Shown: positions 13,254 to 13,980 of the stretch, piece by piece
Numbering within the stretch: position 1 is the stretch's first letter
Layout of the letters: the number at the start of each line of letters is the position of its first letter
From: Lysobacter antibioticus
Lineage (GTDB): Bacteria > Pseudomonadota > Gammaproteobacteria > Xanthomonadales > Xanthomonadaceae
Direction of reading: 5' to 3'
NCBI RefSeq assembly: GCF_001442535.1
Contig: NZ_CP013141.1
Span: 3,016,113 to 3,080,112 of the forward strand
DNA: 64,000 nt
Translations under genes and position numbers: made by a program
The notes under the pieces: model-generated
Seen by the model: only the letters and a program-made list of their open reading frames with translations
Database searches by the model: none
What the model was told of the DNA's origin: nothing

Positions 13254-13513
13254 GCCGTTGCCGTTGCCGTTGCCGTTGCCGTTGCCGCGATTTTGATCTG
13301 CTTTGCCGCTTTTCCGGTCAAGTGGAGACCCGTAGGGCGGCGCACAGGACGTGCGCCGTTTTTCGATAAGACAGGGACGTCTTATCGAAAAATCCCGGCG
13401 CGGGCATCGCACTCGTGGCCTGTGCCCTTGCAAGGAGAGCCCTTTTCTTTGGTTAGCTTTGACCGAAGGGAATCCAGACGGACTTTTGGGCTTAGCAAAA
13501 GAAAGTAACCCGG
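13254..13513 (+). repeat. Structured repeat element, copy A
   Basis: An element of about 260 bp. It has a (GCCGTT)5.5 microsatellite (13254-13286), the word GAGACCCGTAGGGCGGCGC, and hairpin 1 (13339-13357; GGCGCAC, loop AGGAC, GTGCGCC). Hairpin 2 follows (13359-13392; a perfect 14 bp stem with loop AGGGAC), then a stretch ending TTTCTTTGGTTAG (to about 13456), and a tail CAAAAGAAAGTAACCCG (13496-13512). An inverted homologous copy lies at 13755-13980 with the same order of parts. It may be a mobile non-coding unit or encode a structured RNA. Confidence 0.75.
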
Positions 13514-13754
13514 CCGCGTCAGCGGACGGAAGCTCTGCTCTTGCTCGATCAACGCAATCTTGCGAATCCGCCCCTGTAGGAGCGAAGTAAGTCGCGACCA
13601 AAGGATGCGCAGGGACCGCAAGGCCGATGCCATCCAATCGAAGCGACATGCTTTCCCGGGTAGGAGCGGCGCGAGCCGCGACCGCGCCGCGACCGTTCTT
13701 GCGGCGCATCTCACTTGCAAGATCAAACGCCAAAAGCCTCCGCCACTAAAGCGG

Positions 13755-13980
13755 CGGGTTACTTTCTTTTGTCATAAGCAACAAAAGAAAGGTAACCAAA
13801 GAAAAATGCTTTTCTTTGAATCACCAGCCCGCACGCGCGTTGCCGACGCAGGGACTTTTCATACGGGACATCCCTGTCCCGATGAAAAACGGCGCGCATC
13901 CTTGCGCGCCGCCCTTTGGGTCTTCTATAGCCTTCGCTAGTGCGAGGCTACGCACAGCAACAGCAACAGCAACAGCCAAG
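13755..13980 (-). repeat. Structured repeat element, copy B (inverted)
   Basis: Read on the minus strand it repeats the order of copy A. There are about four (GTTGCT) units (13955-13978), then GAAGACCCAAAGGGCGGCGC and hairpin 1 (13891-13910; GGCGCGC, loop AAGGAT, GCGCGCC). Hairpin 2 (13856-13888; TTTTCAT plus CGGGAC, loop AGGGAT, with one bulged base) precedes TTTTTCTTTGGTTACC and the tail CAAAAGAAAGTAACCCG. The last parts form an extra stem (13757-13771 with 13782-13797). Stem sequences differ from copy A by paired changes. Confidence 0.75.

Follow-up and report, generated by a model that had tools for sequence, protein, structure and literature searches.

An A(N)GGA motif in a hairpin loop is the recognition site of CsrA/RsmA, one CsrA/RsmA dimer can bridge two such sites, and the decoy RNAs of the CsrB/Rsm group come from one or a few loci. 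Support for both the site pattern and two-site bridging is found in the available text of PMC4333381, which also predicts that the RNA motif TwoAYGGAY (Rfam RF01731) binds CsrA and calls its function unknown. TwoAYGGAY was described in 2010 and found in human gut, Gammaproteobacteria, and Clostridiales (PMC2864571, in the portion available). Xanthomonas is reported to be without a CsrB, RsmY, or RsmZ homologue, and the mRNA-derived RsmU sequesters RsmA there; altering all four GGA motifs of RsmU did not abolish RsmA binding, and the complex formed by the mutant was smaller (PMC7694677, accessible part). The TAACTGA repeats of Beggiatoaceae were judged unlikely to be CsrA sites (PMC4679880, accessible part). 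At the DNA level, the closest described systems are the REP, BIME, and REPIN elements, which are short intergenic palindromes of high copy number that form inverted heterodimers (PMC3733652, as far as its available text goes).

The locus discussed here lies in the window, by which we mean the whole 64,000-nt stretch of the Lysobacter antibioticus genome that was analysed, and consists of two oppositely oriented copies of one structured unit, copy A on the plus strand (13254 to 13513) and copy B on the minus strand (13755 to 13980). An earlier note on this DNA had named hexanucleotide repeats, four hairpins, a TTTCTTTGGTTA word, and a tail as the parts of A and B, with the loops AGGAC, AGGGAC, AAGGAT, and AGGGAT, and all of these parts are present in the window piece from 12900 to 14300, the four loops lying in hairpins of A and B. 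Copy A runs on the plus strand from a GCCGTT hexanucleotide microsatellite at its outer end (13254 to 13287) through a variable stretch to hairpin 1, of 8 bp (CGGCGCAC-AGGAC-GTGCGCCG, 13338 to 13358), and hairpin 2, of 14 bp (TTTTTCGATAAGAC-AGGGAC-GTCTTATCGAAAAA, 13359 to 13392), both seen in the sequence and by RNA folding, and then through a spacer to the tail (CTTTTCTTTGGTTA ... CAAAAGAAAGTAACCCG, 13442 to 13512), which has a 22-nt insert relative to shorter copies. On the minus strand, copy B has a GCTGTT hexanucleotide microsatellite at its outer end (13954 to 13977), a hairpin 1 of 9 bp with the loop AGGA within AAGGAT (13890 to 13911), a hairpin 2 with the loop AGGGAT (13856 to 13889), and a tail (13755 to 13818) with the predicted hairpins CAAAGAAAAGC..TTTTCTTTG and GGTTAC.TTTCTTTTG../CAAAAGAAAGTAACC. 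A run of five T residues follows hairpin 1 in the pair, and the 17-nt tail CAAAAGAAAGTAACCCG is identical between A and B.

Against shuffled sequence, the double hairpin folds with a z of -4.15 in A (1 of 200 shuffles as good) and -4.87 in B (0 of 200), and the B tail folds into its two hairpins with a z of -5.52; the A tail, with its insert, folds no better than shuffled sequence (z -0.54). Several features go beyond those noted earlier: a closing pairing around both A hairpins on the plus strand (GGG at 13335 to 13337 with CCC at 13394 to 13396), the hairpin in the B tail, REPs between and around the copies, and a recurrence of the inverted A/B pairing elsewhere in the genome. The centre of the pair (13514 to 13754, without an assigned strand) has the conserved ends GCCGCGTCAGCGGACGGAAGC... 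and ...AAAAGCCTCCGCCACTAAAGCGG and holds two plus-strand REPs, one of GTAGGAGC type at 13576 to 13599 and a second at 13660 to 13683. Flanking REPs lie at 13090 to 13112 (plus), at 13219 to 13242 (minus, 11 nt ahead of copy A), and at 14023 to 14045 and 14109 to 14131 (both minus), such that six REPs of GTAGGAGCGGCGCGAGCCGCGAC type surround and split the pair between 13090 and 14131. Two genes converge on the element, one of 110 aa on the left (12709 to 13041, plus) and an open frame of 437 aa on the right (14146 to 15459, minus).

TwoAYGGAY is the best-scoring Rfam match of copy B, at 36.9 bits (E 7.6e-4), which is below its cut-off of 43, and copy A is not listed against this model up to an E of 5. 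Its best score in the own genome was 40.5 bits among 51 scored candidates, also below 43, and the model found no match in 16 loci from other genomes; matches over the cut-off occurred in 6 of 41 genomes, of the same genus or the same order. Like TwoAYGGAY, the unit has a pair of neighbouring hairpins whose loops are of the ANGGAY type, with a closing pairing around them. In contrast to TwoAYGGAY, the second position of the loop either holds a purine or is missing in the window pair (Y at this position does not occur in either copy, and ATGGAT loops occur in other own copies), and the high copy number, the inverted A/B pairs, the tail, and the REP association of the unit are not mentioned in the available portions of the TwoAYGGAY accounts. 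Other weak Rfam matches, such as ryfA and Y RNA, reached at most 19 bits against cut-offs of 54.5 to 100 and are attributed to chance.

The unit resembles REP, BIME, and REPIN elements in being palindromic, intergenic, and of high copy number and in forming inverted heterodimers, and differs from them in having as its core a double hairpin, about 75 nt long, with a tail, in its whole length of about 210 to 260 nt, and in its GGA loops. Neither foot word of REPs, GTAG or CGTC, is found on hairpin 1 or 2, and the neighbouring REPs do have GTAG. Like RsmU and the CsrB, RsmX, RsmY, and RsmZ decoys, it has several GGA motifs able to bind RsmA, the binding being putative for the unit (PMC7694677, accessible part), but it differs from them in occupying about 200 dispersed, putatively expressed loci. 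A literature search, conducted mostly at the level of abstracts, returned no report of such units as high-copy inverted repeats.

It had been proposed that the structure is maintained by paired changes in the stems, and this is borne out across many copies and genera by covariation in four alignments, A1 to A4. The covariance model used here is called R1. Both sides change in 19 of 25 pairs in A1 (25 sequences; covariation score 0.397 versus 0.151, sd 0.014, for shuffled and 0.238 for the best slide), in 20 of 25 in A2 (71 distinct sequences among the matches listed; 0.371 versus 0.104 and 0.086), in 24 of 25 in A3 (77 distinct rows from other genomes; 0.655 versus 0.156 and 0.122), and in 13 of 25 in A4 (72 distinct own copies; 0.269 versus 0.113 and 0.054), where 98.3% of the stem cells are paired. 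The stems covary strongly, none of 500 shuffles reaching the covariation score in any of the four alignments. A second measure, of further pair types, was above the shuffles in A3 (0 of 500 reached its value) and not in A1, A2, or A4 (194, 304, and 273 of 500 reached it). A2, A3, and A4 were fitted to R1, which flatters them, and A1 was aligned without structure. The 16 copies from relatives in A1 came from 32 lines of a GGA-loop detector, which makes its loops circular and its stems less so, the structure having been named after the alignment was viewed; A2 derives from an exact hairpin-1 pattern, for which 80 loci were listed out of 118 stretches, and hairpin 1 is therefore circular in A2.

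The claim that A(N)GGA(Y) loops are kept holds as well, while the neighbouring loop base varies. Among distinct own copies, GGA is kept in 70 of 72 for hairpin 1 and 71 of 72 for hairpin 2, and the base preceding it may be G, T, A, C, or missing; the corresponding counts are 74 and 73 of 77 in A3 and, among the matches listed, 69 and 55 of 71 in A2. When only the exact hairpin-1 pattern was used as a starting point (82 of the 86 listed matches counted, 4 being at edges), GGA was in the loop of the strongest hairpin within the next 60 nt for 46 of 82 of the matches listed, and within the 60 nt before the pattern for 14 of 82. With its complement TCC as a control, the counts were 2 of 82 downstream and 5 of 82 upstream among the same matches, and an AGG-in-loop control, which overlaps AGGA, gave 7 and 8. 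A fully unpaired A(N)GGA was present in the best loop in 8 of 82 of the matches listed on either side, a low figure because the fold often closes the A with a T. Five Selenomonadaceae loci have GTGAT as their second loop, which contains no GGA. The two GGA motifs are 25 nt apart in all 115 own copies measured (of 120) and 22 to 26 nt apart in all 126 measured elsewhere (72 plus 54, leaving out 9 of 81 and 20 of 74 rows), lengths of a kind that the model favours.

Selection on a sense-strand RNA is expected to favour G-T over A-C mismatches in paired columns. One-sided G-T and A-C changes numbered 12 versus 5, 25 versus 17, and 14 versus 25, which is no clear excess of G-T over A-C; in this test the stems therefore give no indication of strand. 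The stem changes thus fail to tell RNA from single-stranded DNA, and what is strand-specific is the loops and the side of the tail only. The tail pattern CAAA+GAAA+GT occurs within 200 nt downstream of the hairpins in 118 of 120 own copies (all 120 counted), in 36 of 78 rows of A3 (of 81), and in 34 of 69 rows of A2 among the matches listed (of 74), and upstream in none of the three sets. A looser pyrimidine pattern was found downstream versus upstream in 37 versus 1 in A3 and, among the matches listed, in 41 versus 3 in A2. Where the CTTTTCTTTGGTTAC...CAAAAGAAAGTAACC tail is found, it lies 3' of the hairpins (13442 to 13512 and 13755 to 13818 in the window), and a similar pyrimidine-rich stretch follows the hairpins in Selenomonadaceae.

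The two-hairpin unit is a dispersed repeat with about 200 copies, a fair estimate, in the 5.77-Mb genome. This figure draws together a hairpin-2 pattern, RGACANGGAYGTCY, with 222 matches (115 plus 107) in the own genome (5,765,140 bases, one contig) against 10 for the backward control; blastn, with at least 90 matches for A and at least 63 for B (40 candidates scored for each); and R1, which matched 150 of 150 scored candidates. For closer study, 57 own-genome stretches were picked by similarity to A or B (one, L079, was unused, being a 218-base piece within another), and the subtype and region statistics below therefore describe these stretches and not all of the roughly 200 copies. In the 56 fetched regions and the window, nhmmer gave 128 hits, 120 of them above 60 bits, and R1 likewise found 120 copies in the fetched regions.

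From 5' to 3', the unit has the hexanucleotide repeat and a variable stretch, then hairpins 1 and 2, and after them a spacer and the tail. The tail is followed by a conserved CCGC...GCGG piece; many copies also have a repeat containing GATC and, about 90 to 120 nt further on, a REP. At least two tandem hexamers are present at the outer end of 110 of 120 own copies, versus 253 of 2000 random windows at the same loci. The hexanucleotide word itself varies between copies with a common period of six, and GATC-containing hexamers follow the tail in many copies (for example downstream of B copies in L075 and L047). Clustering divides the own copies into subtype A (52), subtype B (67), and one in neither, with the spacer and tail modules shuffled among copies.

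The orientation of neighbouring units alternates in a BIME-like manner: of 58 own-genome neighbours separated by less than 500 nt, 57 are inverted, and in 53 of the inverted ones a subtype A unit is joined with a subtype B unit (p 2e-12 versus random mixing). Pairs with facing tails have a centre of 86 to 94 nt in 25 of 35 cases and of 125 to 279 nt in the remaining 10, a REP lying inside 9 of these 10, and the window pair, at 242 nt, is of this long-centre kind; pairs with facing heads are separated by gaps of 4 to 258 nt. Outer REPs flank the units on both sides in 26 of 62 regions. The REP density is 3.1 per kb in convergent and 1.9 in tandem regions among the 62 that bear units, against 0.42 in convergent, 0.36 in tandem, and 0 in divergent regions without them. 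Inverted pairs are also found elsewhere, with tails facing at L167, L170, L185, L210, and L214 and heads facing at L179, L212, L213, L216, L228, and L245; other genomes also have same-strand runs (L240; L025) and many single matches.

All 120 own copies examined, in 62 regions, are intergenic according to a codon-model gene finder that recovers the 3' ends of both genes at the window locus; a length-based gene finder, which called 74 of the 120 genic and 10 divergent, was dropped. The own regions comprise 33 tandem, 29 convergent, and 0 divergent gene pairs, as compared with 179, 48, and 37 among all neighbouring gene pairs there (divergent depletion p 3e-5, convergent excess p 7e-10). The 61 regions at loci of other genomes comprise 33, 25, and 3 versus 126, 43, and 46 (divergent depletion p 8e-5), a count that covers 116 of 155 elements, with 39 in loci of less than 60% G+C left out, 28 at edges, and 1 in a gene. 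The avoidance of divergent regions fits a 3' element, and it is expected as well of a neutral repeat and of any repeat that promoters do not tolerate. Single units between tandem genes are antisense to the genes in 4 of 5 own cases and in 14 of 19 from other genomes (18 of 24, p 0.02; some loci may be cut before the partner), which argues against a role as a simple sense decoy in the 3'UTR.

The right-hand gene was found in all 20 same-genus genomes searched, the own one included, and R1 at an E of 0.01 detected no unit in the right-hand-gene loci of 18 of the other 19. In 13 relatives without the unit (L138 to L150) the left and right genes are adjacent, separated by a gap of about 40 to 620 bases as compared with 1104 here, and the gaps of several hold little besides a REP pair. 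In L152 a portion of the left-hand gene is found about 1.1 kb from the right-hand gene, and the left-hand gene was not found in the loci L151 and L153 to L155. In one relative, G017, the right-hand gene is 96% identical and copy B is present at the contig end. We infer from these comparisons that the unit arrived, amid REPs, in the lineage of the window genome and G017. The earlier note had speculated about a translation-linked mobile unit, and it is the mobile half of this idea that is strengthened by the lineage-specific presence at the window site. The unit-free sites differ too much to define a target-site duplication by eye. In L148 and L149 a different inverted repeat (with words such as TTCCGGCGAAAGCCGGAA) replaces the unit in the syntenic gap, so the gap is a place that collects repeats.

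At an E of 1e-4 or better, R1 matched 37 of 274 genomes of the class in 34 of 222 genera, the own included. Among the matches listed, the exact hairpin-1 pattern occurs in Lysobacter, Xanthomonas, Stenotrophomonas, Pseudoxanthomonas, Luteimonas, Rhodanobacter, and Oleiagrimonas and also in Mariprofundus, Halopseudomonas, Pseudomonas, and many Selenomonadaceae. The two genera in which copies had been anticipated, Lysobacter and Xanthomonas, are among these, but the range of the unit is wider and includes Selenomonadaceae. R1 at 1e-4 matched 15 of the 18 genomes with the hairpin-1 pattern among the matches listed, with 24 matches in Luteimonas mephitis, 24 in Pseudoxanthomonas sp. CF125, and 19 in a Selenomonadaceae assembly; it found no match at this threshold in the Mariprofundus, Halopseudomonas, and Pseudomonas genomes that carry the pattern. 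A variant order, with a GGA hairpin upstream of hairpin 1, was seen in L221 and L224 (Stenotrophomonas), with a AGTAACCAAA word following directly, and in L189 (Mariprofundus) and L240. In Selenomonadaceae the second stem of the unit is different, and many copies agree with the window unit in loops, spacing, and the side of the tail; the recurrence of the unit across phyla is possibly a case of convergence instead of shared descent.

Two CsrA matches (92 and 51.5 bits) were found in the own genome, and a CsrA match was present in 20 of 21 genomes searched, the own included. This applies to 17 of the 18 genomes with the hairpin-1 pattern among the matches listed and to 14 of the 15 of those with R1 matches; a metagenome assembly with R1 matches, G344, had no CsrA match. 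Since CsrA is common, co-occurrence is a weak test.

We tentatively favour, at somewhat less than an even chance, the view that the unit is a BIME-like composite repeat of double CsrA/RsmA-type hairpins acting as dispersed candidate RsmA decoys, and consider this the best single explanation mainly because changes in the stems leave the loops and their spacing intact. The units have repeated GGA motifs in hairpin loops, as CsrA/RsmA-binding RNAs do: on its own strand, each has a pair of hairpins whose A(N)GGA(Y) loops are spaced by about 25 nt, and an A/T-rich tail comes after them. With A and B oppositely oriented, a transcript entering from either neighbouring gene would carry one sense double hairpin, each double hairpin might bind one RsmA dimer, and the transcribed copies would jointly titrate RsmA as distributed decoys. 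Through the units, RsmA may in addition influence what happens to individual 3' ends, and the unit would spread together with its flanking REPs. Points against the decoy reading include the antisense single units, the 13 syntenic relatives that manage without the window copy, the lack of a clear G-T excess in the stems, the avoidance of divergent regions expected of a neutral repeat too, the low count of unpaired A(N)GGA in the best loop, the GTGAT loops of the five Selenomonadaceae loci, the R1-matched assembly G344 with no CsrA match, and the binding of RsmA by the RsmU mutant with altered GGA motifs. The main rival, which we regard as rather unlikely, is a repeat that acts at the DNA level, its hairpins serving a transposase or nuclease as signals in single-stranded or cruciform DNA, as in REP, REPIN, or BIME elements, and its GGA loops being read by that enzyme and not by CsrA. 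In its favour, inverted dimers and heterodimers with REPs nearby are a typical REP arrangement (PMC3733652, available text), the presence at the window site is lineage-specific, the lack of a strand signal in the stems is compatible with palindrome upkeep in DNA, for example by template switching or gene conversion, and the genome has three Y1 transposase-like genes (29460 to 29786, 31011 to 31298, and 2783727 to 2783996). However, neither the hairpin-2 pattern nor the searched tail word is present in the three Y1 loci (about 3.3 kb each), GTAG is missing from the hairpin foot, and the pattern of the loops and the distance between the two sites, which are in keeping with recognition by CsrA, are found again on many different stems. 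A RAYT linkage was considered and rejected, as none of the three genes lies beside a unit by the patterns searched; one Y1 match contains an internal stop, and the third Y1 locus (L286) holds seven REP words.

Two further explanations are more doubtful. A 3'-end RNA element independent of CsrA, such as a bidirectional terminator or an mRNA stabiliser, appears improbable: the units are on the 3' side of one or more genes in all 62 own regions and in 58 of 61 at loci of other genomes, and the T5 run follows hairpin 1 in the window pair, but this T-tract forms the base of hairpin 2 and is not conserved among relatives, where it changes with its partner, and the conserved GGA loops would be left unexplained. 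Because of this variation of the T-tract, an intrinsic terminator was rejected as the general function. The least probable of these readings, in our estimate, is that every unit is a small RNA gene in its own right, of the CsrB/RsmZ kind and with a promoter of its own; double GGA hairpins and the frequent antisense position of single copies relative to neighbouring genes are in line with it, but the region upstream of the hairpins consists of the microsatellite and the variable stretch.

Extended to the whole genome, the decoy reading leads us to speculate, as a possibility we hold to be on the unlikely side, that a mobile repeat serves as a distributed sponge for RsmA, in which about 200 intergenic units with tightly spaced pairs of putative sites, most of them arranged to deliver one from either strand, would set the level of free RsmA in proportion to genome-wide read-through transcription. 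Should the units not bind RsmA, the conserved loops would need another reader, which would be equally informative. If they do bind it, the buffer of the Csr/Rsm network would consist of hundreds of sites carried by repeats, in place of one or a few decoy RNAs, and a change in repeat copy number would directly tune a global regulator. Such a role, if true, would also provide a function for the TwoAYGGAY RNA (PMC2864571 and PMC4333381, in the portions available) and a decoy candidate for Xanthomonadaceae, the family of Xanthomonas with its reported lack of a CsrB/Rsm homologue (PMC7694677, accessible part).
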